A DNA stretch of 64,000 nt from Desulfosudis oleivorans (GTDB taxonomy: Bacteria; Desulfobacterota; Desulfobacteria; Desulfobacterales; SURF-7): positions 186,001 through 250,000 of the forward strand of contig DYJD01000004.1 in NCBI GenBank assembly GCA_020723325.1, written 5' to 3'. Position 1 is the stretch's first letter; each line of letters starts with the position of its first letter. The notes under the pieces are model-generated. The model searched no databases, was not told the origin of the DNA, and saw only the letters and a program-made list of their open reading frames with translations. The position numbers and the translations under genes were made by a program. This document shows positions 27,909-64,000 of the stretch, piece after piece.

Positions 27909-27929
27909 AAAACCAGCAGAGGAGGCTTC

Positions 27930-32114: not shown

Positions 32115-32136
32115 ATTGTGAATAAGGAAGATTACC

Positions 32137-33387: not shown

Positions 33388-33398
33388 TGCCGCGCCCT

Positions 33399-33938
33399 TT
33401 ATTTGGGGGCCGCCCTTTGCTGAAACTGATCCAGGGCCTCGGGCAGCAAGCGCCGAATAAAGACCTGGCGGTCGTATTTGACCAGATTGCAGTATTCCGG
33501 ATAGCGCGGATGCAGGGCTGAAAGGGTGGGCGGTTGATTCATGCAAATCGTGCGCATCCGTTCAAAGGCAAGAATAAATTCGATCAAAGGCCGGCCTTCA
33601 CCGGCAAAGGTTTCAACCCAGCCCAGACGTTTCATCATTTCAAACCGGACCTGATCAGCCAAAAACAGATGAATATCAATCACCCGCATGCGCTCCGTAT
33701 CGTCCAGATAATAGAACTTGACCGGATTGCCCCAATTCAGCACGCCCATGATGAGTTCATAATAGGGCAAAGCCTGGCTTTCACCCGGCTGGGCCAAACG
33801 CAAAAGCGTATCATCGGAAATATCCGCGAGGCACGTGTTTCGATGAAACGACTCCCCGAACCGCTTACGCCAGGGACCGAATCCCTTTTGCTCGATTTGC
33901 TGTAGACGATAATCCTGAATTGAAATGATATCGGCCAT
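33399..33938 (-). CDS. Hypothetical protein
   Basis: 179 aa from MADIISIQDYRLQQIEQKG; uninterrupted, no antisense alternative. Confidence 0.6.
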   Translation of the reverse strand: MADIISIQDYRLQQIEQKGFGPWRKRFGESFHRNTCLADISDDTLLRLAQPGESQALPYYELIMGVLNWGNPVKFYYLDDTERMRVIDIHLFLADQVRFEMMKRLGWVETFAGEGRPLIEFILAFERMRTICMNQPPTLSALHPRYPEYCNLVKYDRQVFIRRLLPEALDQFQQRAAPK

Positions 33939-34042
33939 GCAGGCTTTTTCTCCGGAAAAGGACCAAACACAAAAAAAACCGGAAAAAGATCTCACGATAA
34001 GCCAAATTATCATTGAACAACGTTAAATGTCAAACACTGCCC

Positions 34043-34117
34043 AACGCGGAACGCGGAATTCAAATACGGAATGTGGTTGTTTTTTTATTCCGCGTTCCGA
34101 GTTCCGCGTTCCGCGTT
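34043..34117. repeat. Inverted heptad repeat, AACGCGG / CCGCGTT
   Basis: AACGCGG AACGCGG AATTC... then CCGCGTT CCGAGTT CCGCGTT CCGCGTT (34090-34117). Confidence 0.88.
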
Positions 34118-34716
34118 TACGTGAGTGGAATGACCTTATCCGCCACCTGCATGGCCGTGACGATGTCGAGCATGTTGGTGGTTTGGCCCACCTGCTTTTT
34201 ATCCAGTAGTTGAAAATGCTCCAGGCAGGTGCCGCACACGAGGATCTGCAGTCCGCTGCGTTCATATTCCTGAAGAATTTCCAGCACGGGCGAGCCGCTC
34301 ACGGTAAGCTTGACACCGTTATTGACCAGGACCAGCCGCCAAAATTCCTTACCCATTTCCTTCAGGGTCTTGATGAAATTCACCATGAGTTTGCGGCCCA
34401 ATTCATCATCCCCTGTTCCCATGCGATCGGTGGCAGCCAGCACCAAAATTTTTTTCACTTCCCCAGGAATTTCTTCAACGGCGCAACTTGCATCGCCGGC
34501 CCCTGTTTTGCGTGTGCCCATGACCTGGAATTCATTTCCCTGTTGCATGGCCGAGACCTCGAATTGTTGGGATTCCAGAAAGCGGCAAATATTCTGTTTG
34601 GCGGCCCCGTTGTCCACCAGGATCTGTAAAACCGCAGGATGTTCCTTTTCAATAGCCTCCTTGACCAGCAGCACCGGCGCTGGACAAGCCAACCCTCTGG
34701 CATCGATTGTTTTCAT
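34117..34716 (-). CDS. yedF: Sulfurtransferase-like selenium metabolism protein YedF
   Basis: N-terminal TusA-like MKTIDARGLACPAPVLLVKEAIE plus DsrE-like C-terminus; next to selD. Confidence 0.88.
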   Translation of the reverse strand: MKTIDARGLACPAPVLLVKEAIEKEHPAVLQILVDNGAAKQNICRFLESQQFEVSAMQQGNEFQVMGTRKTGAGDASCAVEEIPGEVKKILVLAATDRMGTGDDELGRKLMVNFIKTLKEMGKEFWRLVLVNNGVKLTVSGSPVLEILQEYERSGLQILVCGTCLEHFQLLDKKQVGQTTNMLDIVTAMQVADKVIPLT

Positions 34717-34746
34717 CGCCCATTCCTCTTTTTCCATAATTATAAA

Positions 34747-34906
34747 ACTTGAATATCGAAATACGAAATTCGAAATAAATTCAAAATTTCAATAACAAAA
34801 TAACCAAAACAAAAAACAGTAACGCAATAGCCTGATAGTTTGCCGATGTTTTTGTATTTAAATTTTGGTAATTCGAATTTGTTTCGTATTTCGATATTCG
34901 GATTTT
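34747..34906. repeat. Repeat family A, copy in opposite orientation
   Basis: gaatatcgaaatacgaaattcgaaat...ttggtaattcgaatttgtttcgtatttcgatattcgg. Confidence 0.85.
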
Positions 34907-34971
34907 CCTGACCTGCTGAAACAATTATCTTGCCCTGTTTTATGCCCACCAATATGCTTCCTTGTCAAGTT

Positions 34972-36018
34972 CTACTCAACAATTATGGGATACTGCGCAT
35001 TCCGAACAACTTCACCGATCAAAGCCCCGCTGACCCCGTTCTGTTTTAAGGCCTGCAACAAGTCTTCGGCTTGGCCAGGCGCCACAGCCATCAAAAGCCC
35101 CCCGGATGTCTGGGGGTCGAACAGAACCTCCGGCAGCAATGGAGAAAGACTTGACGAAAAAGACACCATGCTTTCACGAAACTCTTTGTTTTTGTATGCA
35201 CCGCCCGGGATCAGCCCCATGGCGGCGAATTCCAGGGCCTCGGGCAAAATGGGAATGGTCCTGGCCCACAGGCGCGCGCCCAGATTTATTCCGGCTGTCA
35301 TTTCCGCCAAATGACCCAAAAGGCCGAAACCGGTGATGTCTGTGCAGGCTCCTATTGAGAAAGCTGCCATGACGTCCGCGGCATTACGATTCAACGCGGC
35401 CATCTGCCGGGTGACCCGCTCGGTTGTTTCCTGGGAAGCCAGGCCGGCCTTGATGGCGGTGTTGATGATGCCGGTGCCGAGGGGTTTGGTTAAAATCAGG
35501 ATGTCCCCCGGACGCAAACCGTTCTTGGTCAGAATCTTTTCCGGATGAATGAAGCCGGTGACCGCCATGCCGTATTTGAGTTCCGGATCTTCCACGCTGT
35601 GCCCGCCCAGGAGCACCACCTCAGCCTCTGTGAGCTTGTCCAGCCCGCCCTGAATCATGGCCCGCAATATGTTCATTTCCATTTTTTTCACCGGAAAGCA
35701 CACCAGGTTCATGGCGGTCTTGGGTATGCCGCCCATGGCGTAAATATCGCTCAAGGCGTTGGCCGCCGCTATCTGGCCGAACCAGTAGGGATCATCCACA
35801 ACCGGCGTGAAAAAATCAACCGTCTGAACAAGGGCCAGCTCCGCGTTGATCCGGTAAACCCCGGCATCATCCGCCCGGCTCAGCCCCACCAGCACATCGG
35901 CATTGGTTGGAAACTCCATGCCGCACAAGGCTCGGTCCAGGTCCCCTGGCGCCAGCTTGGAAGCTCAACCGGCTCCGGTCACTGTGGTGGTCAAACGTGG
36001 CTTGTCTTCGGCATTCAT
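34972..36018 (-). CDS. selD: Selenide, water dikinase SelD, selenocysteine-containing
   Basis: Read-through of UGA at 35965-35967 gives MNAEDKPRLTTTVTGAG-U-ASKLAPGDLDRALCGMEFPTNADVLVGLS..., matching the SelD catalytic GxG(C/U)xxK region. ORF track starts late at 35928. Confidence 0.93.
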
Positions 36019-36048
36019 ATGGGTCCTATTCCTATGTTTCATTTTATG

Positions 36049-36130
36049 GACTTGGTCATTTTTTCGTCCACCCTTTCTTCTTAGTGGGAGCGGCTTCCAG
36101 CCGCGATTCGGTCGAAACGATGATCAAGAC
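36049..36130. repeat. Repeat family B copy upstream of selD
   Basis: gacttggtcattttttc ... gtgggagcggcttccagccgcgattcggtcgaaacgatgatcaagac. Confidence 0.75.
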
Positions 36131-49225: not shown

Positions 49226-49969
49226 TTATTCCGACATTCCTTGCAGCAAGGCGAGGACATTATGCCCCAACACCGTGTGATTGTAGCCACCCTCCAGAAT
49301 ACCGAAACAACCGCCTTTGTTTTGTTGGGCCGTGTCCCGCACCATCCGGCCGATGGTAAAATAGTCTTCTGTTGTCAGAACCCCGCCCCAGTCTTCCTTG
49401 TGATTGTCAAAGCCGGCGGAAATGCCGATGATGTCCGCCCGGCAGTTCTCCATGGCTGTGCGGATTTCCGCCAGATAGGTATTGCGGTTGCGCGTGGCCA
49501 GGTTGTGGACTGTTGCCCAGGACTTATGTCCGAGAATGTTCTCAGTCCCATCTCCATGGTGCATGTCGATATCGAGGACATAAGCGCTTTCAATCCGGTT
49601 CTCCCTTTTCAATTTTTCCATGGCAATGGCCATATTATTGAAAAAGCAGAATCCCCAGGCCGAACCGGAGGAAGCATGATGACCGGGCGGACGGATCAGG
49701 CCAAAGGCCGGCTCCGTGAGTCCCGTCATGGCCGCCTGAATGGCGCCGCCAACGGCAAGGGCCGCGATCTCATACAAACCGTCATTTTTAACCGAACGAA
49801 TGTGATCGGCCGTGTGCACTGCCGCAATGTCGGCTTCCCTGGCAGGCGCGATGTCCACCAAGGTCACTTCCGCCTCAATCACTTGCAGCACAGCCTCCAT
49901 CCGGCCCCGGGCCGCGGCCGGATCGGCTGTATATACCTCCAAGAAATCGTTGTGAAAAAACACTTTCAT
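49226..49969 (-). CDS. Histone deacetylase family protein
   Basis: RPPGHHASSGSAWGFCFFNNMAIA, DIDMHHGDGTE, ISAGFDNHKED motifs. Confidence 0.92.
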   Translation of the reverse strand: MKVFFHNDFLEVYTADPAAARGRMEAVLQVIEAEVTLVDIAPAREADIAAVHTADHIRSVKNDGLYEIAALAVGGAIQAAMTGLTEPAFGLIRPPGHHASSGSAWGFCFFNNMAIAMEKLKRENRIESAYVLDIDMHHGDGTENILGHKSWATVHNLATRNRNTYLAEIRTAMENCRADIIGISAGFDNHKEDWGGVLTTEDYFTIGRMVRDTAQQNKGGCFGILEGGYNHTVLGHNVLALLQGMSE

Positions 49970-50040
49970 GGGGCACCTCATACCCTGAACACGCTAAAAT
50001 GTGTTCATCTACGCCTTGATCATTATTTGAGCCACTTATA

Positions 50041-50232: not shown

Positions 50233-51135
50233 CTAATTGTGAACACTTCTAACCTGATCCTTCAGCCCGGATCGAATCCACCCCGGCGGCTTGATTCGGC
50301 CGGCGCTGACATCCCGCATGCGCACCCCGTGGATGATTTCACACACCGCCCCGTTCAGGGTCTCAATTTCCAGATTAAAAATGAGACCGCCGTTTTCATC
50401 CGTTCCCAAAGGGATCACAAGGCCCCGATAAGTTTCCCCGGTTTGGGTTGGCCGGACAATTTCCCGTCGGCTGAACCCCACCGGAAAGGCGACAATCCCA
50501 TGAAAACGCTGCCCCCAGACGCAGGCGGCATGAAAGGCCGCATCCAAGGGGAACGGCGAGCCCAATACCAACGGCAACGCTCCCAGTCCGTCGGCCGCCG
50601 GGGCATGAATCTCGGCAATTGCCCCGGATATGGACACATGCAGTCCGCGGGTAATCGTATGATACGCAGGGCCGAAAGGCACCAACTCCTGATAAACCGC
50701 TCGCGGAGAAACCGCAAAGTCGACGCCGCTCGCGGGGGATCTGTTTACCCCAGGGCCTTGCCCCGCTCTTTGCCCTTTTCCCGGAAAACAAATGACCGCA
50801 TGTTCCTTAATCCGGCTGATGGTGGATTTGCCGCTCTGCACCCGCATGGTCAAGCGTGCGACCACATCACCGTTGTCATAACAGGTCAGATCGTTGATGA
50901 CGGCAAGTTCCGCCACCTCCGGTTTAATATACAGGAATTTATCGAAACTTGCATCTTTTATTACGTGGATGTCAATGGCCGGAAAAACCTGCTGAACAGC
51001 CCCGGCCAATATCTGCATGGCTTCCACTGCCGGCATGACGGTTCTATCTTCAAAGCGATGATCCCGCAGATACAGCGGGACCGGAATGGTCATGGGCAAC
51101 CGGACCGTCGTACTTATTTTGGAAATATTTTCCAT
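50233..51135 (-). CDS. Stand-alone polyketide-synthase-type dehydratase (PS-DH-like) protein
   Basis: DHRFEDRTVMPAVEAM, FGPAYHTITRGL, PFPLDAAFHAACVWGQ match the His, GxxY and Asp motifs of PKS DH double hotdogs. Confidence 0.75.
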   Translation of the reverse strand: MENISKISTTVRLPMTIPVPLYLRDHRFEDRTVMPAVEAMQILAGAVQQVFPAIDIHVIKDASFDKFLYIKPEVAELAVINDLTCYDNGDVVARLTMRVQSGKSTISRIKEHAVICFPGKGQRAGQGPGVNRSPASGVDFAVSPRAVYQELVPFGPAYHTITRGLHVSISGAIAEIHAPAADGLGALPLVLGSPFPLDAAFHAACVWGQRFHGIVAFPVGFSRREIVRPTQTGETYRGLVIPLGTDENGGLIFNLEIETLNGAVCEIIHGVRMRDVSAGRIKPPGWIRSGLKDQVRSVHN

Positions 51136-51593
51136 AGATGCGTGGTTTTGGCATCCACTTCCACCGGGATGCCCTCCTTGTTCACCGCACAATGCCGGGT
51201 GAAGCCTTTGCAGACAATGCCGCCGGTCTGCTCCTGAACAATGGTATATTCAAAACGCAAGCGCACCCTTTCCATTTCCGACGGCCGGGTGTAAATCCAC
51301 ATGGCATCATCATAATAAAGCGGACTGTGATAGGTGATGCCGATTTCAATGATGGGATAGATGTAGCCGCTTTCCTCGATTTCACGATAGGGATAAGCCG
51401 CATCGCGCATCAGGGAAGCCCGGCCGAGTTCAAAATAGCGCAGATAATTGGCATGGTAAACCACCTGGGAACGATCCGTATCCGCATACAGGGTGCGGTT
51501 CAGGCAGCGGTGCCACACCGTGCCGTCGCTTTTATTCCGGACATAACGTTCATCGCCGTTGAGCACTTCCGGTATGAAAGGTTTCGGTCGCAT
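51114..51593 (-). CDS. Acyl-CoA/ACP thioesterase, YbgC-like hotdog
   Basis: YADTDRSQVVYHANYLRYFELGRASLMRD signature. Confidence 0.87.
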   Translation of the reverse strand: MRPKPFIPEVLNGDERYVRNKSDGTVWHRCLNRTLYADTDRSQVVYHANYLRYFELGRASLMRDAAYPYREIEESGYIYPIIEIGITYHSPLYYDDAMWIYTRPSEMERVRLRFEYTIVQEQTGGIVCKGFTRHCAVNKEGIPVEVDAKTTHLWKIFPK

Positions 51594-52859
51594 TCACACC
51601 CCCCGAAAAACAACGCAGCAGTTGGTGCCGCCGAAGCCGAAGGCATTGGAAAGAAAAAATTCATGGGACTGCTTGCGCACCTGGTTGGGCACCACGTCGA
51701 TATCTGCCAGCCCCGGGTCCGGAATATGATTCACCGTGGGCAGAATGATCCCCTGCCGCATGGCCTCAATACTCAGGGCCGCCTCAATGGCCGCCGAAGC
51801 CCCCAGGGTATGGCCGATCTGGCTCTTATTGGAGGAAACCGGTATCTTTTGAAGATGCCCGTTGAAAACAGCGCGCAGGCATTCCACTTCCGTGCTGTCC
51901 CCCTTCATGGTAGAGGTGCCGTGGGCGTTGACATATTGAATATCTTCCGGCCCGAGCCCGGCATCGACAATGGCTTCGCGAATGGCCCGGATAATGGTTT
52001 CCGCATTGGGCCGGGTGAAATGATGGGCATCCGAAGTCCAGCCGATACCCATGACTTCGGCCTTGGGGGACAAACCAAAAGGCCGTAAGACCTCGTCGGC
52101 GGCCAGCACCACCACCCCACCGCCTTCGGAAAGCACAATACCCTTGCGGTCGATACTGAAGGGTCGCGAGGCCTGGGTGGGATCGGCAAAGGCCCGGTCA
52201 TCGGGATTGATTTTGATGGTGGCGGACATATTGGCAAAACCCTGGATGATTTCCGGGATCAAACAAGTGTCCACCCCCCCGGCCAGCACAAAATCACAAT
52301 CCCCGTCCCGGATCATGCGGGCGCCTATGCCGATGGCGTGATTGCCCGAGGCACAAGCCCCCTGGGGGGAAAAAATGGGTCCGGTGAATCCCAGCATCAT
52401 CCCGGCCTTGCCGGCCGGCAGGTTGGCGCACAAATTGGGCAGCAGATAAGGGCTGACCTTGTACGGCCCCTTGGTGGCATAATTGGTCATGGCAATGCGA
52501 AAGGCATCGGTGCCGTTGAGGGCCGAGCCGATCAGACAGGCCATGCGGGGCGCGGTCTCATTATTCACCACCAGTCCGGCATTGGCCAAGGCCTCCCGGC
52601 ACACCGCCATGGTGAGCAGGACAAAGTCCGCATCCCAATTGTAAGCCTCTTTGCGATCAATGAAATCCATGGAAAGGGGGTCCCAGTCCGGTATCTCCCC
52701 CACCACGTTGCTGCGGGTCTTGACTTCGCAGCGGGTGACTTTACGGAAGCCGGCTTCTCCGCGCACGGCCCGCTCCCAGGTTTTGGCAAAGGTGCGCCCC
52801 AAGGGCGTGGCCGCCCCATAACCCACTACATAAACGCGTCTGTTTTTCGGCGCTTTCAT
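51594..52859 (-). CDS. Beta-ketoacyl-ACP synthase
   Basis: GACASGNHAIG Cys, VNAHGTSTMKGD His, KSQIGHTLGASAAIEA His. Confidence 0.92.
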   Translation of the reverse strand: MKAPKNRRVYVVGYGAATPLGRTFAKTWERAVRGEAGFRKVTRCEVKTRSNVVGEIPDWDPLSMDFIDRKEAYNWDADFVLLTMAVCREALANAGLVVNNETAPRMACLIGSALNGTDAFRIAMTNYATKGPYKVSPYLLPNLCANLPAGKAGMMLGFTGPIFSPQGACASGNHAIGIGARMIRDGDCDFVLAGGVDTCLIPEIIQGFANMSATIKINPDDRAFADPTQASRPFSIDRKGIVLSEGGGVVVLAADEVLRPFGLSPKAEVMGIGWTSDAHHFTRPNAETIIRAIREAIVDAGLGPEDIQYVNAHGTSTMKGDSTEVECLRAVFNGHLQKIPVSSNKSQIGHTLGASAAIEAALSIEAMRQGIILPTVNHIPDPGLADIDVVPNQVRKQSHEFFLSNAFGFGGTNCCVVFRGV

Positions 52860-52872
52860 GACTTCCTTGTTC

Positions 52873-54123
52873 CTATTCCGTCCTGCGGAAAATCATGCAG
52901 GCATTGCATCCGCCGAAGCCGAAGGCGTTCTTCAGCACGTGCTCCTGCTGCAGCCTGCGGCTTCCTTGGGCCACACAATCCAGCTCCATTTCCGGATCGG
53001 GCAAATAATTAATGGTGGGCGGCAGGGTTTCCGTCTGCATGCCCCGGAGCGCCCAAATGGATTCAATGGCGCTTGAGGCCCCCATGGCATGCCCCATCAG
53101 GGACTTGTTGGCCGTCACCGGCGGAATCTTGGTTCCGAATACGGCCCTCAAGGCCGCATACTCCACCTGATCGCCGATGCGGGTTGCGGCAGCATGGGCA
53201 TTCACCGCCTGGATATCCCCAGGCCCAAGGCCGGCATGGGCCAGGCTTTTCTCCATACAGCTTTTAACGGTTTCAAAATACGGCGCGACAAAATGATGGG
53301 CATCCGAGGTCATGCCCCAGCCGGCGATTTCCGCATTGTATTGCAACCCATGGGCCGATGCAAATGCTTTTGTGGCTAAAATGATGGCACCGGCTCCTTC
53401 GGCAATGACAAAGCCCCGCCGGTGCAAGGAAAACGGCCGGCTGGCCGATTCCGGCGGTTCTGCCGGCCCACCCTCCTTGGGAACATAGGCCCCGTTCATG
53501 GTGGCGAAACCGGCCACAATTGGCTCCACCAAGGCAAAATCCACGGCCCCGCAAATGGCCACCTCCGCCTGGCCCTGGGCTAGCAGCATGGCGCCGATGA
53601 TCATGGAAGTCACGCCGGTGGCGCAGGCCGTGATGGTGGCGGTGATGGGCCCCCTGGCGCCGGTCAGCATGGAAATCTTGCCCCCCACCATGTTGATGCA
53701 GGCATTGGGATTGGAATACGGATGGGGCCATTTCCCGGCGGCAATCATCAAGCGGTCGGCCGCAAGAACGGCATCGATTCCGCCGATGGCGGAACTGTAA
53801 GTCACCGCCACCCGCGGTGCCAGATCCGGCGTGATGGTGATTCCGCTTTTTTCCAGGGCCCGTTGTACGGTCAACAAGGCGTATTTGAAAATCGGCGAAC
53901 GCCAGCAGGCCTGTTCCCGGGGTTTGAGAAAGGGATAATCCAGATGATCAATGGAAGGTGCCTGGCCGGCGATGCGCACTGGGAATTCCGGGGAAAGCGG
54001 GAAGCGCGTCAACGGCCCGATGCCGCTTTGCCCTTGAACAGCCCGGGTCCACTGCTCCGCAAGCTCAATCCCCAAAGGGGATACGGCATCATACCCGACA
54101 ATGACCGCGGTGGTTGCGTCCAT
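52873..54123 (-). CDS. Beta-ketoacyl-ACP synthase, variant HAAAT motif
   Basis: ITACATGVTSM Cys, VNAHAAATRIGD His, KSLMGHAMGASSAIES His. Confidence 0.9.
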   Translation of the reverse strand: MDATTAVIVGYDAVSPLGIELAEQWTRAVQGQSGIGPLTRFPLSPEFPVRIAGQAPSIDHLDYPFLKPREQACWRSPIFKYALLTVQRALEKSGITITPDLAPRVAVTYSSAIGGIDAVLAADRLMIAAGKWPHPYSNPNACINMVGGKISMLTGARGPITATITACATGVTSMIIGAMLLAQGQAEVAICGAVDFALVEPIVAGFATMNGAYVPKEGGPAEPPESASRPFSLHRRGFVIAEGAGAIILATKAFASAHGLQYNAEIAGWGMTSDAHHFVAPYFETVKSCMEKSLAHAGLGPGDIQAVNAHAAATRIGDQVEYAALRAVFGTKIPPVTANKSLMGHAMGASSAIESIWALRGMQTETLPPTINYLPDPEMELDCVAQGSRRLQQEHVLKNAFGFGGCNACMIFRRTE

Positions 54124-54128
54124 GCCCT

Positions 54129-55127
54129 TTACCAGGGAATGAATTGATAGAGTTTGGCGAACATTTCATACACTTGGATCCAGTTCTGCAAATCCTGGGT
54201 GGAACGCATGTGGGCACGCTTGTTGACCATGACCCAGCTCATGTGGGCGGCCCCGTCCTTGCAGGTGGAACAATCCCGGGTTTCCGAGGTGCAGCAGCGG
54301 TGCATGGTTTTGAGATCCGAGGCCCAACGGATGAAATTGGTCAGGCGCTTGGGCTGCGGCTGGCGATTGTCCAAAGCATCGGTCACCGACGGGCATTCCA
54401 GCCAGCCGAAACTGCGTTCCATCATTTTTCCGCTGGTGATGATCTCATGATAATATTTGGAGGAAATGACCGTGTCCGCATAGGTGTCCAGCATGGCGTC
54501 CATTTCCTTACGAATATCGGCAAGTTCCTGGACGGACCAGGAGAAGCCGTTCACCCCCTCGTCATTGGACAGAAGCTGCATATGCACCTTCAGGCCCACG
54601 TCCCGGATTTTGCGTATGACCGCCTCGGTTTTTCCGATCTGCTTGGGGGTGATGGTGTACAAATAATAGGTATAGGGATCGCCCGCATAGTTCTTGCGGG
54701 AAATGGAAAAGGTGTCTTTGCCCCGCAGGATTTTTTCGTCTTCTTCATCACCCCAAACGGAAATCCCCACCATCATGTCCGGAAAACGCTCCCTGGGCAC
54801 CTTGATCAGGCCGTTGGTGGCGCAAAAAGTCGGCAAGCGGCGGTAAAAGGCTTCCACGCGATCCAGGCACAAGGTGGGCTCACCGCCGATGAGAATGGCC
54901 AGGTTGACCCCCCGGGCTTTTTCCTTGTCAATGAAGGCTTCCCATTGGCTGATGTCGTTTTCCTCCGGCGCCGCCTGGTGTTCGCCGGATGAAAAAAAGA
55001 AACAGCCCTTGCAGCGCAAATTGCAGCGATTGGTGACATCGTAAATCGAACTGCGGATATTCAGCTTTGAAATCCGGGAATAGCGCGCATGCCATTCCTT
55101 ATCCAACAATGAACTAACGGTTTTCAT
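54129..55127 (-). CDS. Radical SAM protein (paralog 1)
   Basis: CNLRCKGC motif, C-terminal CCTSETRDCSTC auxiliary Cys cluster; start at MKTVSSLLDKEW. Confidence 0.9.
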   Translation of the reverse strand: MKTVSSLLDKEWHARYSRISKLNIRSSIYDVTNRCNLRCKGCFFFSSGEHQAAPEENDISQWEAFIDKEKARGVNLAILIGGEPTLCLDRVEAFYRRLPTFCATNGLIKVPRERFPDMMVGISVWGDEEDEKILRGKDTFSISRKNYAGDPYTYYLYTITPKQIGKTEAVIRKIRDVGLKVHMQLLSNDEGVNGFSWSVQELADIRKEMDAMLDTYADTVISSKYYHEIITSGKMMERSFGWLECPSVTDALDNRQPQPKRLTNFIRWASDLKTMHRCCTSETRDCSTCKDGAAHMSWVMVNKRAHMRSTQDLQNWIQVYEMFAKLYQFIPW

Positions 55128-55146
55128 CAACCGGCTCCTTGATCGG

Positions 55147-56235
55147 TTATTTTTCCGGCACGACAATCAACTGATTGCACAGGTTGGGCTCTTTTGCATA
55201 GCCCGTTACCCAGACGCTCAGATATGTGTCGGCATAATCCAGCCAGGCCTTGAAGGTTGTGGGGTCAACGGCATGGCGATAGAGCTTGGCCGTCACCACC
55301 GCGCTGCCCGAGGCATAATGCCGGCAATCGGCGCAATCCGTGTCCGGTACACAGCAGGCCGCATTTTTGTCCCAGGTCAGATCCGTGCGATACTGGCGGA
55401 AAGAGCGGCCCAGCCCCAAATCCGCCGCGGGATTCATGCGCGGATACAGGCAGCCGTACAAGCCGTGCAGACTCAAGGGATGGGTATGGGCCACGGCGTT
55501 ATAATAGGAGAACAAAACCTGCTGCGGAAACCGGTTCAGCAGGGTGATCATCATGTTGCGGGTGCTTTCCAGGGAAAGCCGGTTATGGCGCAACCCCCCT
55601 GTATAACCCACCGGTGCTGAAAAAACATTGAAGGTAACCTTGCAGTCGTGGGCGGCCAAGGTTTGGACCACCTCCGCGGCTTGTTGAATATTGTCCCGGG
55701 TAAAAGTGTACACAAATACGGCCCGTTCGTCCCTGCGGTAGTTCTCGATCTGCCGTAGCAGCATGTCCTTGGCCTTGCGGGTTTTCAGGCTGGTTTCGTC
55801 ATTGCCCCATACGGAAATATGAATTTTATAATTCACCGTGCGGGGAATCAACTTAAGCCCGTTGGTGGCAATGGCCCCGAGGGGTATTTCTTCATAACAG
55901 ACCTCACACAGTTCCGGAACCAGCGAAGGTTCGGCACCGGCCAGGACCACAAAGGTGATGCCGCGCTTTTTTTCCGCAGCCATCAAGGCGCGCCAAGCCT
56001 CCACATCCCGGTTTTCCTCGGCAAACTGTTTTTCACCTTCATAATAATAGCAACCGTCACAGCGAATGTTGCAGCGGTTGGTCATATCATAGGTTGATTC
56101 CCGCAGAAAAAAATATTTGCGGACTTTTTCCCAGCGCTCCCGGACAATGGGATCGGAAATGATCTCGGAAAATTTCCATTCCTTTTTACATGCTTCCGGG
56201 CTTGTTTGGATCGGTTCGATAATCGCGGCTCGCAC
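55147..56235 (-). CDS. Radical SAM protein (paralog 2)
   Basis: CNIRCDGC motif, C-terminal CCVPDTDCADC; colinear similarity with neighbouring paralog. Confidence 0.9.
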   Translation of the reverse strand: MRAAIIEPIQTSPEACKKEWKFSEIISDPIVRERWEKVRKYFFLRESTYDMTNRCNIRCDGCYYYEGEKQFAEENRDVEAWRALMAAEKKRGITFVVLAGAEPSLVPELCEVCYEEIPLGAIATNGLKLIPRTVNYKIHISVWGNDETSLKTRKAKDMLLRQIENYRRDERAVFVYTFTRDNIQQAAEVVQTLAAHDCKVTFNVFSAPVGYTGGLRHNRLSLESTRNMMITLLNRFPQQVLFSYYNAVAHTHPLSLHGLYGCLYPRMNPAADLGLGRSFRQYRTDLTWDKNAACCVPDTDCADCRHYASGSAVVTAKLYRHAVDPTTFKAWLDYADTYLSVWVTGYAKEPNLCNQLIVVPEK

Positions 56236-56258: not shown

Positions 56259-56525
56259 TCAGGCTGACAGTTTATTCTTGATATAGGCTGAAATCAAGCG
56301 GATGGTGGTAAGCTTGGGGTAATCATCCTCGTCGATCCGGATGCCGTATTCATCCCGTAAAACCAGGGCCACGGTGGCCAGATCCATGCTGTCGATGCCC
56401 ACTTCATCCACCAGATCCATGTCCGGATTGAAGGTTTGCGGGGTGACATCTTCCAGTTTGAGCTCGTCAATCATGATCTCCGCAACCCGCAAGATGATTT
56501 TTTCAATATCGATTGCCTTGGACAT
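56259..56525 (-). CDS. Acyl carrier protein
   Basis: VDEVGIDSMDLATVALVLRDEYGI phosphopantetheine Ser motif. Confidence 0.9.
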   Translation of the reverse strand: MSKAIDIEKIILRVAEIMIDELKLEDVTPQTFNPDMDLVDEVGIDSMDLATVALVLRDEYGIRIDEDDYPKLTTIRLISAYIKNKLSA

Positions 56526-56629: not shown

Positions 56630-57013
56630 TCAATTCTTGGTTACAACCTTCACCTTCATAAACCCGTTGCAAATCATCTCCCCGGCCGCCATCAAACGAA
56701 AGGCATAAGCCCCTTCATTTCCTGTTGCCGGTGCAATGTGGATTTGTATGGGCTCATCGGGTCTGATAATGCGCCGGAAGCGGATGCGGCTGATTTCCGT
56801 CACCGCCAGGGTTTGTTCACATGCCTGCTGAAGGACATCCAGCACCATCCCCAACTGGGCCACCCCTGGAACAATGGGATCACCCGGAAAATGACCGGAA
56901 AACCAGGCCGACTTCGGCCCGATGACCACCTCTGCTGAAATTTCTCCTGTTTCCGAACGTCTGATATTTTGCAATCCATGCCACATGTCTGAAAGCTTCT
57001 TCTCGAATTTCAT
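56630..57013 (-). CDS. Hotdog-fold FabZ/ApeI-like protein
   Basis: GHFPGDPIVPGVAQLGMVLDVL; 127 aa. Confidence 0.82.
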   Translation of the reverse strand: MKFEKKLSDMWHGLQNIRRSETGEISAEVVIGPKSAWFSGHFPGDPIVPGVAQLGMVLDVLQQACEQTLAVTEISRIRFRRIIRPDEPIQIHIAPATGNEGAYAFRLMAAGEMICNGFMKVKVVTKN

Positions 57014-57032: not shown

Positions 57033-58382
57033 TTAGCGAATCAAGTATTCCCAGAGGGGTCCGCTGAAACCACGGGAATACATTTTGCTGAGGATTCCGG
57101 CCGTACCCTCCCCGCCGGCACCCACGATCCAATTGGGGCGATTTTCGGCCGCTTGCCTGACCCGGCGCAGAATCTCCCCGCTGGGGAGGGTGTTGCCGCG
57201 ATAGAATACCGGGGCAAAAATATTGCTTGCGCTTGTAAGCCGGCCCTCTCTTATTGCCAGGTCATACAAATCCGTGTTGGGATAAATCCGCATTCCGCAA
57301 AAGAAAAATAAAACCGTTCTTTCCAGCTTGTGAACTTGCGTGAGGGTTTCTTCAAGACTAGCCTCTTCCTCTCCTGGCCCCCCCAGCAAAAAATAATGGG
57401 CCACATTCAGTCCGGCTCCCACCGCCGCCCCATGGGCCTGAAAAACCTGCTTGTTCCGGAAGGGTTTTTGATAGGCCGCCAATACCCTGTCGGCAAGGGA
57501 TTCCGTGCCGAATTCCACATGGGTCAGTCCGGCCGCGGCCATCTCATTAAAATAACCATCCGGCAATTGAATGGGCGCGAAAAAAGCCCCCCAGGGAATT
57601 GTTAAACCGGCCTTTTGAAAGGCCTTGGCCACGGCCAGGCTGTGATCAATATCGGCATTGAAGGCCGAATCGGTGACAAAAATATATTTGGCGCCGGCAG
57701 CCTCAAGGGAAACGGCTGTCTGGGCCACCTCCGCGGGCGGGATCAGGCGCAAAGTCCGCCCCTCCACATGGGGATAGGTGCAATAAATGCATTTGAAATG
57801 GCACCCGCGTTTGGTCTGAAGATTGAGCATGCCGCCATGCTTCAAATAAAAAGCAAGCTGGGCATTTCCCCCCTGCCCGCCTCTGTCAAATGCCTGCTGC
57901 AAAGGGCCGGGGAAATCAGGGACTTTTCCCCTGACCATGACCCCCGGGATGCCGGCCGGATACTGGCGGTTTTCCATGGCATCCAGCAGCTCGGCCAGCC
58001 GCTCGCCTTCGCCGATAATGCCGTAATCAGCCCCCAGCCCGTCCATATACTCCCTTGGAAAGATGGTGAATCCGCTGCCGCCCAGGATGACCGGGGCCGG
58101 GGAATTGTTGCGAACAGCCCGGATCAGGCCCTGGTATTCCGCCATAAAGGTCTTGGGGGCAGTGCAATCGGTATTGTCCACGTTTCGTAAAGATACGCCG
58201 ATCACTTCCGGCGGGTCCTGCTGTATGATCCTTGCCAAGCCCTGCCCGTCCCGGACCACATTCATATCGGCAATACGCACCGCATGCCGGGGTGCCAGTG
58301 CCGCCGCCACATAATCCAGCCCGATGGGATAGACCGGATACGGCTCGGTGAGCATATTAGCGGAAATCAGCAAAACCTTCAT
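57033..58382 (-). CDS. B12-binding-domain radical SAM protein
   Basis: MKVLLISANMLTEPYPVYPIGLDYVAAAL N-terminus; CHFKCIYC cluster motif; ATGA overlap with upstream gene. Confidence 0.9.
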   Translation of the reverse strand: MKVLLISANMLTEPYPVYPIGLDYVAAALAPRHAVRIADMNVVRDGQGLARIIQQDPPEVIGVSLRNVDNTDCTAPKTFMAEYQGLIRAVRNNSPAPVILGGSGFTIFPREYMDGLGADYGIIGEGERLAELLDAMENRQYPAGIPGVMVRGKVPDFPGPLQQAFDRGGQGGNAQLAFYLKHGGMLNLQTKRGCHFKCIYCTYPHVEGRTLRLIPPAEVAQTAVSLEAAGAKYIFVTDSAFNADIDHSLAVAKAFQKAGLTIPWGAFFAPIQLPDGYFNEMAAAGLTHVEFGTESLADRVLAAYQKPFRNKQVFQAHGAAVGAGLNVAHYFLLGGPGEEEASLEETLTQVHKLERTVLFFFCGMRIYPNTDLYDLAIREGRLTSASNIFAPVFYRGNTLPSGEILRRVRQAAENRPNWIVGAGGEGTAGILSKMYSRGFSGPLWEYLIR

Positions 58383-60550
58383 GACCCAAAAAGCTCCACC
58401 ACCGTGACAAAGGGTCCCAAACCCAACAGAAGAATCCCCTTGCTGTCGAGCGTAAGATCCGCTCCGCCCCATAGAACACCGGGTACCGTGCCCTGCTCCA
58501 GCCATTTTACCGCCAGGACGGCAGCCACGGCCGAAGCCGAGGCGAATTCACCGATCCATTTGCGATAATCCACCACCGGACCCTTAAAACCGGACAAAGC
58601 CGACAGTTCAGCCAACTGGCTTTCCCCTTGAGCGCGGCCGCCGGCTGGAATCCCTGCCAGAATCAACCCGTAGCGCTCACTCAACTTTTCTCCGCAGCCC
58701 AAAGCAGCCAGCGCTTCGGCCATGACTTCAGCCGACTGCCCGGCATTGGCATAGAAGCGCAGCCCAAGGCGAGGCCAACCGGCCGTTGCCGCGGACCTGG
58801 TCAAAACCAGGGCGCCGCCGCCGTCCGACAGTTCTTTTGCAGCCCTGACCGAAGGATCAAACAAGCCGGAAAGCGCCCCAAGGGCCTCGTCCGCACCGGC
58901 CACCAGGATGGGATCATCCAGCCCGGCAGCGCACAGCTCAGCAGCCAACAGGGCCTGCTCAAAGGAATAATCTCCACCGGTGGTGGTGAGATTGGGGCCC
59001 TGGGCCTTGAACCACATGGCGATTTGCCCGGCCGGGGCATTATGAACCGAGCCCGTAAAATCCGTGGGACTCGGGAATTGCTCATTGGTGGCATACAAGC
59101 GGGTTAAAAAAGCATGGGTATCGGATAGCGCGCCCCAACCTGTACCGAAAAATACTGCCTGGGGCGGTTTAGACCCTTCCGCGTCCTGATGGGCGGCCTG
59201 GGCCAGGGACAAGGTTAGACGCGGCAAGCGTTTCAAGCGCCGAATGTCGCGGGCCGGCAATTTCAGTTCCGGCCCTTCGGCAGATATCATGCCGGTACAT
59301 GTCACCCCTTGCCGGAGGGCGGCCGTGGTTTTCTCCGTATCCCCCCGGCCGGTGATGCAGGCGCTGCCCAGAATTGAAAAGGCCTCAGCTTGCTGCCCGC
59401 ACCCCTCCCGGCCGGCTTGACCGGGTTTTGCAAGCACCAGTGCCGCATTGTTGCCGCCGAAGCCAAAGGAATTGGAAAGCACCGTCCCAATCGGAACATG
59501 CAACGGCGTTTGCACCGGCCGGATAGCCAATTCCGGATCCACTTCTACGCAACCGGTGTTGGCCGGCACCAGTCCATCTTGAAGCGTCATGGCCGCCACC
59601 ACCGCCTCAATCGCGCCGCTGGCTGCCAGGGAATGGCCGCAGGCGCCTTTAATGGAAGAAAGCAACGGCAAGTGATCGCCAAAAAGGGCGCGCACGGCCT
59701 TGGCTTCGGCCCGGTCATTGTCCGGTGTGCCGGTGCCGTGGAGATTGACGTAGTCCACTTGCCTGGGATCGATTTCCGCGTCCGCCAAAGCGGCCCGCAT
59801 GGCGGCAAGGGCGCCAAGGCCCTCGGGATGGGGGGCCGTGGGATGATAGGCATCGCAGGAAAGGCCGCCCCCCCGGATTTCAGCCAAGGCTTTTTCCGGT
59901 TCATCCCCGGCCAGCAGCAGCATAGCCGCACCTTCAGCCACTGTCATCCCCCGCCGGTTTCGGGCAAAAGGGGCAGCGCCTTGGGGGTCGATCAACTGCA
60001 AGGATAAGAAACCGTAATAAGTAAGCCGGCAAAGGGAATCCACCCCGCCCACCAATACCCGCCCGGCCTTGCCGCTGCGGATCATTTCCAGGCCGATCTT
60101 AACAGCCACGCTTCCGGAGGAACAGGCGGTTGAAATGGTCAGGGCCGGCCCCCGGCAATGGTATAGGGCCGCCAGATCCTCGGCCACGGTGCCGGCCCCA
60201 TGCCATTTATAGTCTTCCGGATTGCCATGGCCGGCTTTCAGGTGCTTTTCCGTTAAAAACATGCCGCCAGTGGTCACTCCCATAATCACCGCATCCACAG
60301 CCTGCTCACAGCCGGCCATGGCCTGGGCCGCGGCCAGCCTGGCCAGGACATGGGTGCGGGGCAGGTCCCCGGCCTCCGGCAGGGCCGCCACTTGCCCCAC
60401 GGGCATGGATTTGTCCGCGGCGACCTCAAACACGGTCAGGCGGCCGAGCCGCCGCTGCCCGTTGAGCAAAGCCGCCCGGGTTTCCGTGAGGCCCATACCC
60501 AAGGGACTGACGATTCCCATGGCATGTATGTAGACCGGTGTTCGCTTCAA
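58379..60550 (-). CDS. Ketosynthase fused to a CLF-like (Cys-less) ketosynthase domain
   Basis: N-half TISTACSSGSVAV, VNLHGTGTPDND, GACGHSLAASGAIEA; C-half TTGGDYSFEQALLAAELC...ILVAGADEALG without the Cys. Confidence 0.85.
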   Translation of the reverse strand: MKRTPVYIHAMGIVSPLGMGLTETRAALLNGQRRLGRLTVFEVAADKSMPVGQVAALPEAGDLPRTHVLARLAAAQAMAGCEQAVDAVIMGVTTGGMFLTEKHLKAGHGNPEDYKWHGAGTVAEDLAALYHCRGPALTISTACSSGSVAVKIGLEMIRSGKAGRVLVGGVDSLCRLTYYGFLSLQLIDPQGAAPFARNRRGMTVAEGAAMLLLAGDEPEKALAEIRGGGLSCDAYHPTAPHPEGLGALAAMRAALADAEIDPRQVDYVNLHGTGTPDNDRAEAKAVRALFGDHLPLLSSIKGACGHSLAASGAIEAVVAAMTLQDGLVPANTGCVEVDPELAIRPVQTPLHVPIGTVLSNSFGFGGNNAALVLAKPGQAGREGCGQQAEAFSILGSACITGRGDTEKTTAALRQGVTCTGMISAEGPELKLPARDIRRLKRLPRLTLSLAQAAHQDAEGSKPPQAVFFGTGWGALSDTHAFLTRLYATNEQFPSPTDFTGSVHNAPAGQIAMWFKAQGPNLTTTGGDYSFEQALLAAELCAAGLDDPILVAGADEALGALSGLFDPSVRAAKELSDGGGALVLTRSAATAGWPRLGLRFYANAGQSAEVMAEALAALGCGEKLSERYGLILAGIPAGGRAQGESQLAELSALSGFKGPVVDYRKWIGEFASASAVAAVLAVKWLEQGTVPGVLWGGADLTLDSKGILLLGLGPFVTVVELFGS

Positions 60551-60813
60551 TTGCGCAATCGGGGTGAATTTTCGGCAATATATGCCGCCAGGGTTTTTAA
60601 TGTAGCGAAGACCTTTTGGCCCAATTCCTTGTTGTCGATGATGACGCCGTATTCTTTTTCAATCATCATCACCATTTCCAGCACATCAATGGAATCAATG
60701 CCCAGAGGCCCGCCCACCAATTGCTCATCTTCCTTAAAATCCGCCGGCGTGATATCCGGCAGATTCAACGCTTCAATAATCTTGCTCTTCAATTCCTGTA
60801 ATAACACTTCCAT
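60547..60813 (-). CDS. Acyl carrier protein
   Basis: GGPLGIDSIDVLEMVMMIEKEYGVIID motif; ATGA overlap with KS gene. Confidence 0.9.
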   Translation of the reverse strand: MEVLLQELKSKIIEALNLPDITPADFKEDEQLVGGPLGIDSIDVLEMVMMIEKEYGVIIDNKELGQKVFATLKTLAAYIAENSPRLRN

Positions 60814-61004
60814 ACCGACATCCAATCATTATGGTTTTTTAAGCCTTGTTGCTTTACAGCCTGGGCAAATTGTTGTAGAACTTGAACCCGATCCAAGAGG
60901 GATTGAAACTAATTCCAAGCGGCTTGAGAATCGATCCGGTTGATCTTAGTGATTTGCCGGTTGATTTTCAATGATTTTTTCAAAATCAAAAGGAACCAGA
61001 TGGT

Positions 61005-61433
61005 ATGGAGCCGGTTGATATCGGTATTGATGACCTTCTGCCCCATCGCGGCCGGATGAAATTGGTGGATGAAATTCTGGAACTGGCCGAAGGCCGCGCC
61101 CGGACACGCTCCATCGTTACCCCGGCCTGGCCCTTTTTTGATGGGACAAGTGTGAACGCCCTGATTCTGGTGGAGTTGCTGGCCCAAACCGCCGGCATCC
61201 ACAACGGCTGGACCAGAATCCTGAAAAATGGTCTGGATTCGGAAAAAAAAGGCTGGCTGGTGGGCATCAAGAAAGCCGAATTTTTCATGGAGCGGATTCC
61301 TTTGCATACGCCTGTGATTGCCTATGCCGAAAATCATTTTGAATACGACAATTTCAGGGAGGTGGGTGGAACCGCGGAGATCAACGGTGTGATCGCGGCC
61401 CGGGCAACCCTGCAACTGTTTCAGCCGGACTAA
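61005..61433 (+). CDS. Hotdog-fold ApeP/FabZ-like dehydratase
   Basis: LLPHRGRMKLVDEILE...WPFFDGTSVNALILVELLAQTAG. Confidence 0.82.
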   Translation: MEPVDIGIDDLLPHRGRMKLVDEILELAEGRARTRSIVTPAWPFFDGTSVNALILVELLAQTAGIHNGWTRILKNGLDSEKKGWLVGIKKAEFFMERIPLHTPVIAYAENHFEYDNFREVGGTAEINGVIAARATLQLFQPD

Positions 61434-61443
61434 GCCAGGAGAG

Positions 61444-62187
61444 ATGAATATGGATACGGAACAAACAAGACCGGTGGCCATCGTCACCGGCGGCAGCAAG
61501 GGCATCGGCCGGGCGGTTTGTATTGAGCTGGGACGCATGGGCTGTTATGTGGTGGTCAACTACCGCAGGGACCCTGCCGGAGCCGCGGAAACCTTGGTTC
61601 AGGTAAAAGCAGCCGGCGGCGAAGGCGAAAGCCTGGCCTTTGATGTGGCAGATCCGGCCGCCACCCAGCCGGCCCTTGCGGATATTTTCAAGCGCCTGAA
61701 GACCGTGGATATTCTGGTCAATAACGCCGGCATCACCGCCGACGGCCTGTTCGTCATGATGTCCCCGGCCAAATGGGACGGCGTCATCCAAACCAGCTTG
61801 AGCGGTTTCTACAACATGACCAAACCGGTCCTGGAAAAAATGATCCGCCGCAAAAAAGGCTCGGTGGTTTCCATTGCCTCCATTTCGGCCTTGGTGCCCA
61901 ACCGCGGGCAAGCCAATTATTCCGCTGCCAAGGCTGGTCTCATCGGCGCCAGCCGCTCCGTGGCGGCTGAAGTGGCCCGCCTGGGCATTCGGGTCAATGT
62001 GGTGGCGCCGGGGCTCATCGAAACCGACATGACCAAGGACCTGCCCCTGGACAATGTCAAAACCATGATCCCCATGGCGCGCATCGGCCGGCCGGAAGAA
62101 GTGGCCAAAGTGGTGCGCTTTCTTTGCTCCGAAGACGCCTCCTATATTACCGGCCAGGTCATCTCGGTAAACGGCGGAATGTTTTAA
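61444..62187 (+). CDS. fabG: 3-oxoacyl-ACP reductase, FabG-like SDR
   Basis: TGGSKGIGRAV, NNAGIT, YSAAKAG, ITGQVISVNGGMF. Confidence 0.93.
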   Translation: MNMDTEQTRPVAIVTGGSKGIGRAVCIELGRMGCYVVVNYRRDPAGAAETLVQVKAAGGEGESLAFDVADPAATQPALADIFKRLKTVDILVNNAGITADGLFVMMSPAKWDGVIQTSLSGFYNMTKPVLEKMIRRKKGSVVSIASISALVPNRGQANYSAAKAGLIGASRSVAAEVARLGIRVNVVAPGLIETDMTKDLPLDNVKTMIPMARIGRPEEVAKVVRFLCSEDASYITGQVISVNGGMF

Positions 62188-62191
62188 GACT

Positions 62192-62815
62192 TTGGAAAAA
62201 TTCAGTATCATGAAAGCCTTGCCTGCAAAAGCCCTCCTGTTGTTAACGGTCTTTTTCTGCCTGGGCTGGGCCCAAACCTGGGATGCCGTCCGGCAATCCT
62301 TTGGAAAATTGACCTCCATCCAGGCGGAATTCACCCAGGAAAAACACATGGCCATCCTGGCGCGGCCCCTCATATCCAAAGGCCGCTTTTACTTTCAGGC
62401 CCCATCTTCCCTGCGCTGGGAATACACGCACCCGGTGCGCAGCATCCTGATGGCGGATGAAGGCCGGACAAAACATTTCATTCAACAAAACAACCGCCTG
62501 AAGGAAAACAGCGGCGCCCATCTCCAATCCATGCAGATAGTTCTGCAGGAGATCGGCAACTGGCTCAACGGTCGCTTTGAGGGCAACCCGGTCTTCAACG
62601 CTGCTTTGGAACCGGACCGCAAGATTGTTTTGCTTCCCAAAGAAAAAGCCATGGCCGCCTTTATTGAAAAAATCGAGCTGCAGCTTTCCGAGCAAACCGG
62701 CGTGATCCAGGCGGTAGTCATATATGAAGGCCGGGATTCCTACACCAAACTGTTGTTTGAAAACGTGGTTCCCAACCAAAAGATCGACGCGGCCCTGTTC
62801 CGGAGCGTTGAATGA
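62192..62815 (+). CDS. LolA-like outer membrane lipoprotein carrier
   Basis: Signal peptide; FGKLTSIQAEFTQEKHMAILARPLISKGRFYFQAPSSLRWEYTHPV. Confidence 0.88.
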   Translation: MEKFSIMKALPAKALLLLTVFFCLGWAQTWDAVRQSFGKLTSIQAEFTQEKHMAILARPLISKGRFYFQAPSSLRWEYTHPVRSILMADEGRTKHFIQQNNRLKENSGAHLQSMQIVLQEIGNWLNGRFEGNPVFNAALEPDRKIVLLPKEKAMAAFIEKIELQLSEQTGVIQAVVIYEGRDSYTKLLFENVVPNQKIDAALFRSVE

Positions 62816-63498
62816 GGCTGGTCCGCTTGTTTTCCTGGGCCTTGCTCCTGTGCGCCTGCGCCGGCCCGCCCACCCTTCCTGAGCTGACAGCATCAATCGA
62901 TGCAGAGCTACCCTTGAAATGCCGGAGCTGTTTTCCAAACGGCAATTGGCAGTTGACCCATTCCATCGAAGCCAAGGGGCCTGACGGCCAAACCAATCTG
63001 CTCATGGGGGTCATGCTGCTCTCCTCTGAGCCGGCCCAATTGAAATGCGCCCTCATGACCATTGAGGGTTTTGTGCTGTTCGAGGCGGTTCTCGATGAAA
63101 ATGGATTTGCCGTCAAACGCGCCGTGCCGCCTTTTGACGCCCCGGCCATGGCCCAAGGGATGCTTGCGGATATTCAGCTTCTGTTCTTTGCGCCCAAAGG
63201 GCTCGCCCCTGAATACGGTCGGCGCCCGGACGGCGCATTGGTCTGCCGCCGGCACCTGGCCGACGGCGGAGTTCTGGATCTGACTGTACATGCGGATGAT
63301 TCCTGGGAAATGAAACAGTACAACCCAAACCTGGATTTGATCAAGACTGTGATGGCAACAGACCTGAGCGATTCGTCTCAACAGCGCCTGCCCAAAACAC
63401 TGAAATTGACGACCCATGGGCTTCTGGGCTATGAGATGACCATGCATTTGATTGAGGCTCTGCCGTTCAATCCCGGCGGTGCAGAGAAAAAGGAATAG
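62812..63498 (+). CDS. Lipoprotein, DUF3261-like as found in aryl polyene-type clusters
   Basis: Lipobox-like LLLCACAG; overlaps lolA-like gene; context. Confidence 0.65.
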   Translation: MRLVRLFSWALLLCACAGPPTLPELTASIDAELPLKCRSCFPNGNWQLTHSIEAKGPDGQTNLLMGVMLLSSEPAQLKCALMTIEGFVLFEAVLDENGFAVKRAVPPFDAPAMAQGMLADIQLLFFAPKGLAPEYGRRPDGALVCRRHLADGGVLDLTVHADDSWEMKQYNPNLDLIKTVMATDLSDSSQQRLPKTLKLTTHGLLGYEMTMHLIEALPFNPGGAEKKE

Positions 63499-63653: not shown

Positions 63654-64000
63654 ATGAAATGTAAACTTATTTACCCCAAATGGCCGAGACTCCAGGGCCA
63701 GAACGAATTCCATCTGCCCCCCCACGGCCCGGTGGTTTTCGCCGCCACCCTGCCAAAGGATATTCATATTGATTTTGTGGATGAAAACCTGGAATCCATT
63801 GATTTTGATGACCCGGTGGATTTTGTCGGGATTTCCATGATGCTGACCATTCAGGTGAAACGCGGCTGGGAGATTGCCAGATCCTACCGGCAAAAAGGCG
63901 TGCCGGTGATTTGCGGCGGGATCGCCGCCACCCTCCACGCTGAAGAAACCATGCAATATGCCGATGCGGTTTTTTTAGGGGAAGCCGAAGGCCGCATGGA
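63654..64000 (+). CDS. B12-binding-domain radical SAM protein, N-terminal fragment
   Basis: MKCKLIYPKWPRLQGQNEFHLPPHGPVVFAATLPKDIHIDFVDENLESIDFDDPVDFVGISMMLTIQ...; open at window end, absent from ORF track. Confidence 0.85.
   Translation, partial: MKCKLIYPKWPRLQGQNEFHLPPHGPVVFAATLPKDIHIDFVDENLESIDFDDPVDFVGISMMLTIQVKRGWEIARSYRQKGVPVICGGIAATLHAEETMQYADAVFLGEAEGRM

Follow-up and report, generated by a model that had tools for sequence, protein, structure and literature searches.

A single-chain ketosynthase–chain-length factor encoded in a conserved radical SAM lipid gene cluster of Desulfosudis oleivorans

The ketosynthase (KS) and chain-length factor (CLF) of polyene-type synthases are usually two proteins. 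Here we describe a 723-residue protein, encoded in a 64,000-nucleotide stretch of Desulfosudis oleivorans DNA (the window), in which an intact KS and a CLF-like domain that has lost catalytic residues are joined in one chain. The protein probably acts as a single-chain KS–CLF that elongates a polyene or polyunsaturated acyl chain with coupled acyl carrier protein (ACP), ketoreductase (KR) and dehydratases (DHs).

Results

Two ketosynthase-like halves in one reading frame

The gene and its parts are as follows.

58379..60550, minus strand: fused KS–CLF gene, 723 aa, TTG start, stop codon at 58381-58379 (ORF and translation, Pfam/NCBIfam, AlphaFold2 (AF2), Foldseek)
59423..60550, minus strand: catalytic KS domain, residues 1-376 (invariance in 14 homologues, NCBIfam, nearest PDB entries)
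60122-60124, 59738-59740 and 59633-59635, minus strand: KS catalytic residues Cys143, His271 and His306
59381..59422, minus strand: linker, residues 377-390 (AF2 model)
58382..59380, minus strand: CLF-like domain, residues 391-723 (PF13723, profile alignment, PDB profile match, own AF2 model and fold search)
58970-58972 and 58547-58549, minus strand: Asp527 at the Cys position and Glu668 at the second His position (profile alignment)

The frame 58379-60550 is free of in-frame stops, and the 94- to 205-aa ORFs on its opposite strand are most likely shadow ORFs. Pfam detects ketoacyl-synt and Ketoacyl-synt_C in the N-terminal half and Ketoacyl-synt_2 (PF13723) at residues 431-559 of the C-terminal half (40.9 bits vs. 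a cut-off of 25), thereby returning both domains for which the initial annotation had proposed a search; no further domains beyond KS and CLF were found in the protein by Pfam, and the chain ends after the CLF. The best NCBIfam model for the N-half is PRK09185 (331 bits, under its cut-off of 407), and the nearest PDB entries to the KS half are 9s5h_B, 7f28_B (ApeO) and 6qsp_A (ApeO). Cys143, His271, Lys301 and His306 are invariant in 14 fused homologues, in agreement with the complete Cys-His-His set previously noted for this half.

Profile alignment of the two halves (GPNLTTTGGD over GPALTISTAC) places Asp527, in the sequence GGDYSFEQAL, opposite the catalytic Cys, and this Asp is nearly invariant among the fused homologues. 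The loss of the catalytic Cys from the C-half, as claimed in the initial annotation, therefore stands, while the Gly assigned to that position lies one place earlier and is corrected to Asp527. The second His, the counterpart of His306, is replaced by Glu668. Used as a sequence profile, the C-half finds the ishigamide CLF 6kxd_B as its best solved relative (E = 1.9e-10, profile positions 40-294 of 334), with ApeC chains ranking after it (about 1e-5).

The acidic residue (Asp/Glu) at the Cys position, shared by the fused family and, on visual inspection, by the other fused lineages examined, would also fit a decarboxylase-type pseudo-KS (KSQ-like) that supplies an acetyl starter from malonyl-ACP, with Asp527 replacing Gln, rather than a CLF. 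Decarboxylating KSQ domains keep both His residues, unlike the C-half with its Glu668, and the best sequence matches of the C-half are the CLFs Iga12 and ApeC, making a starter-forming role improbable.

Predicted structure of the joined halves

The whole-chain AF2 model, computed from a 14-sequence alignment, has a mean pLDDT of 88 and a pTM of 0.93, with residues 378-384, in the linker, as the sole segment with pLDDT <50. Its top PDB match by Foldseek, spanning the full length of the protein, is the PfaC KS–CLF didomain (6riw; E = 1.7e-44, TMq 0.83). The C-half modelled by itself (pTM 0.88) is a complete KS/thiolase fold, in line with the thiolase fold expected earlier for residues ~400-723, and its top 50 PDB fold matches consist of ketosynthases, PKS pieces that contain a KS, and CLFs, including those of actinorhodin (1tqy_B) and ishigamide (6kxe_B). 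The model thus gives a predicted KS–CLF pseudo-dimer within the 723-aa chain, pairing an active-type KS with a dead second thiolase fold. An ApeC-type half CLF is ruled out by the two complete thiolase halves in the AF2 models.

Since two more intact KSs are encoded nearby, the halves might merely be co-translated, with the KS pairing with itself and the C-half with another cluster KS. The confident prediction of both halves in one chain, matching the whole PfaC KS–CLF didomain, and the shortness of the linker speak against separate partners, an arrangement we regard as quite improbable.

Fused and separate forms across genomes

A search of 58 genomes around the window's own recovered full-length fused homologues in 13 others (49-56% identity), all of the same order as the window's genome; one additional genome among the 58 holds a fused homologue in two contig-end pieces. 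A scan of named genomes yielded 79 loci, which their record titles assign to Desulfobacterota, Spirochaetota, Myxococcota, Fibrobacterota, Verrucomicrobiota and Pseudomonadota. Sixty-nine of these were scored by script as one open frame, and a C-terminal CLF shown by HMM at L109 and L117 adds two; the gene is a single ORF in about 70 of the 79 loci, a proportion that is biased because the scan was seeded with the fused family's own motifs. The search for other fused homologues suggested in the initial annotation hence extends to dozens of named genomes. The occurrence of the same single ORF in many independent genomes rules out a chance or assembly fusion. The fusion is real and widespread in anaerobes, and the claim of KS and CLF-like domains in one 723-aa chain is confirmed by the single ORF, Pfam, AF2 and this recurrence.

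In Planctomycetota (L113, L114), Myxococcaceae (L108) and Methylococcaceae (L110, L118) the KS and CLF are encoded by two neighbouring genes, and the probable anammox genome G159 carries the same halves as adjacent separate genes; both halves of the fused protein align with such KS and CLF gene pairs from related clusters. The apparent split at L099 probably reflects a draft-assembly frameshift. A maximum-likelihood tree of the KSs requires four changes of the fused state, a count that does not tell joining from splitting, and fused and split forms stand side by side in Methylococcaceae with 99/97 support. Placing all fused proteins in one clade is rejected (p-AU 2e-7). Several joinings or several splittings are both compatible with the tree.

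A conserved cluster rich in radical SAM genes

The fused gene is surrounded by the following genes (rSAM, radical SAM; TE, thioesterase).

50233..51117, minus strand: PKS-type double hot-dog dehydratase (PF14765 PS-DH, 29.1 bits, cut-off 23.7)
51114..51593, minus strand: 4HBT thioesterase (PF13279)
51594..52859, minus strand: third ketosynthase, Cys-His-His intact (Pfam; alignment)
52873..54123, minus strand: second ketosynthase, Cys-His-His intact (Pfam; triad columns invariant in alignment)
54129..55142, minus strand: radical SAM protein (PF04055; 78-83% identical in relatives)
55147..56235, minus strand: radical SAM protein (PF04055; 64-71% identical in relatives)
56259..56525, minus strand: acyl carrier protein 2 (PF00550; conserved)
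56630..57013, minus strand: hot-dog dehydratase, FabA/ApeI-like (PF07977, PF22818)
57033..58382, minus strand: B12-binding radical SAM protein, TIGR04072 (rSAM_ladder_B12; 372.9 bits, cut-off 360)
60547..60825, minus strand: acyl carrier protein 1 (PF00550; conserved beside the fused gene)
61005..61433, plus strand: ApeP-like dehydratase (PF22817)
61444..62187, plus strand: FabG-like ketoreductase (PF13561)
62192..62815, plus strand: LolA-like lipoprotein carrier (PF03548)
62812..63498, plus strand: DUF3261 protein (PF11659)
63654..64000, plus strand: second B12-binding radical SAM protein, continuing past the window end (421 aa in L037; PF02310 over cut-off, PF04055 below; conserved)

The stop codon of the upstream ACP 1 gene overlaps the start of the fused gene (TTGA), and the stop of the fused gene overlaps the start of the TIGR04072 B12 rSAM gene (ATGA); judging from these junctions, the fused gene appears to be translationally coupled to both. 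The order ACP–KS/CLF–B12 rSAM–DH–ACP–rSAM–rSAM–KS–KS–TE–PS-DH recurs in many genomes, along with DH–KR–LolA–DUF3261–B12 rSAM on the other strand. Pfam finds no enoyl reductase among the cluster genes, although KR and DH are present. Some relatives have, close to the cluster, genes for an AMP-binding enzyme, a GT2 and acyltransferases of the lipid-A and PlsC types, plus a weak MMPL match that narrowly misses the cut-off; the acyl-AMP ligase and MMPL-like gene found near some relatives' clusters are absent from the window.

Several of these genes are reminiscent of a strict aryl polyene cluster, primed by 4-hydroxybenzoate and with a fused ApeO–ApeC. The ApeI-like and ApeP-like dehydratases, LolA, DUF3261 and ApeO-like KS are all present, and the AMP-binding enzyme, GT2 and acyltransferases near some relatives' clusters point the same way. 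However, the window cluster has no acyl-AMP ligase, its CLF is full-size and not ApeC-like, and much of it consists of rSAM genes, which to our knowledge do not occur in aryl polyene clusters. We therefore consider this assignment unlikely.

Other observations concern the surroundings of the cluster. A polysaccharide-deacetylase-like gene takes the place of the B12 rSAM gene at L022:9162-10007 (PF01522), L024:11930-12814, L026:11480-12364 and L036:3591-4508, accompanied at three of the four by an extra ACP-like ORF, and about ten loci have deacetylase-like homologues in the vicinity of the cluster. At L190:1149-10906 and L193:1017-10884, the DH–ACP–rSAM–rSAM–KS–KS–TE–PS-DH block stands beside a ~600-bit TIGR04072 protein; no fused KS–CLF was detected at these two loci, and the block thus seems to move as a unit. 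A histone-deacetylase-family gene (PF00850; window 49226-49981) beside the cluster was not seen in the relatives' loci.

Relation to anammox and ladderane-type genes

The order KS, CLF, KS, rSAM, B12 rSAM, KR, ACP in G159, which we infer to be Kuenenia, fits the Kuenenia stuttgartiensis locus tags kuste3349-3340, and its KS/CLF pair is 33% and 30% identical to the two halves of the fused protein. Chains B and C of PDB 9s5h are a solved KS/pseudo-KS pair; chain C closely matches another pseudo-KS of G159, with 750 bits, so an anammox-type KS–CLF structure seems to exist.

Ladderanes, or a direct ladderane precursor, might be thought the product of the window cluster, given that its B12 rSAM protein exceeds the TIGR04072 cut-off, that the probable anammox genome has KS, CLF, B12 rSAM, KR and ACP homologues in the published kuste3349-3340 order, and that Desulfobacterota, Myxococcota, Verrucomicrobiota and others are reported to contain ladderane-class clusters (PMC9902471). 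The window's B12 rSAM protein is, however, just 32% identical to the anammox B12 rSAM, and in the same report the clusters are of unknown function and those outside anammox bacteria are not tied to ladderanes (PMC9902471). Rattray et al. reported that such clusters show synteny with Desulfotalea psychrophila; this bacterium, with its similar cluster, had polyunsaturated hydrocarbons and no ladderanes (PMC2649909). A ladderane product is thus very unlikely.

Other lipid loci in the genome

The window's genome (G000) also encodes a Pfa-type PUFA synthase at G000:C104:122005-132986, with a 2269-aa PfaA-like protein (TIGR02813, 1625 bits, cut-off 1010) followed by a 2410-aa KS-containing ORF; the fused-gene cluster is therefore not the sole route to unsaturated chains. 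A second lipid locus lies on another contig (G000:C68, about 27600-36100; L202:6099-14632), and its ORFs resemble the thioesterase, GT2, acyltransferase, KS, PlsC and B12 rSAM genes found next to the fused cluster in relatives. It includes an acyltransferase relative (53% identity); the GT2-like, KS-like and PlsC-like neighbours are named by resemblance to the L049/L050 set.

Discussion

We propose that an acyl chain would be transferred from ACP to Cys143 of the N-terminal KS and condensed by this domain with malonyl-ACP, while the catalytically dead C-terminal domain would serve as dimer partner, shape the acyl tunnel and set the chain length. Working with the coupled ACP and the KR and dehydratases of the cluster, the KS–CLF would leave a double bond in each round, because the cluster lacks an enoyl reductase gene, and so build a polyene or polyunsaturated acyl chain. 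The radical SAM enzymes may then modify this chain without oxygen, and the LolA/DUF3261-type proteins may assist in delivering the lipid to the outer membrane. The likeliest product would be a polyene or polyunsaturated acyl chain, because KS–CLF, KR and DH without an enoyl reductase form the arrangement of highly reducing polyene synthases. The ishigamide and aryl polyene synthases of this kind use KS–CLF, KR and DH (PMC8358021), and the solved KS–CLF relatives, ApeO–ApeC and the ishigamide pair, are polyene makers.

Some observations weigh against this proposal. A polyunsaturated fatty acid from the cluster would be redundant given the Pfa-type synthase, an enoyl reductase encoded at another locus of the genome could take part, the N-half falls under the PRK09185 cut-off, and the window lacks the acyl-AMP ligase and MMPL-like gene of some relatives. 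More tentatively, the clusters could represent an anaerobic pathway, widespread and so far undescribed, in which a polyene made by a single-chain KS–CLF is rearranged or methylated by radical SAM enzymes without oxygen, giving a new class of outer-membrane lipids related to ladderane precursors.

A KS–CLF that is naturally one chain, with ACP, KR and DH as free partners, would be simpler to study than heterodimers requiring co-expression. The genes switch repeatedly between joined and separate states, which shows which subunits are partners, and this alternation favours interpreting the neighbouring dead KSs of anammox and Desulfotalea-type clusters as CLFs. The non-anammox clusters, some perhaps in culturable carriers, offer a place to test how TIGR04072 clusters may be linked to unusual lipids.

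Our literature search, weak evidence with most subscription journals outside its coverage, turned up no description of a KS–CLF fusion standing alone in a type II lipid cluster. Single-chain KS–CLFs are already known as a kind from PfaC of PUFA synthases (6riw; Santin et al. 2020, as cited in PMC9702510), and the interesting parts here are the stand-alone form, its recurrence and its type II cluster. The initial annotation set the single chain against the separate KS and CLF subunits normal in aryl polyene and type II PKS systems; PfaC is a precedent for the joined form. The window protein shares with PfaC the KS and CLF in one chain, their order and the pseudo-dimer fold. The two are 19% identical, and PfaC is part of a multidomain synthase, whereas the 723-aa enzyme stands alone beside free ACPs, KR and DHs.

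Like type II KS–CLFs, the window protein combines a Cys-His-His KS with a KS-fold partner lacking the catalytic Cys, in one ORF rather than in separate polypeptides. It shares with ApeO–ApeC (6qsp, 7f28) an ApeO-like KS half, polyene logic and nearby LolA, DUF3261 and ApeI/ApeP-like dehydratases, but its KS scores below the PRK09185 cut-off and its C-half has both thiolase halves, whereas ApeC is a half-size CLF. The ishigamide pair Iga11–Iga12 (6kxd), the best sequence match of the CLF half, consists of two separate proteins; this KS–CLF synthesizes a conjugated polyene chain together with KR and DH (PMC8358021).

The anammox KS/pseudo-KS pairs among the proposed ladderane genes (kuste3349/3348, 3605/3606 and 2804/2805) and their Desulfotalea-type relatives likewise place a KS beside a dead KS, in clusters with TIGR04072 radical SAM, KR and ACP homologues; they differ in being separate genes, with about 30-33% identity per half. 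With ladderane-type clusters the window shares the TIGR04072 B12 radical SAM protein.
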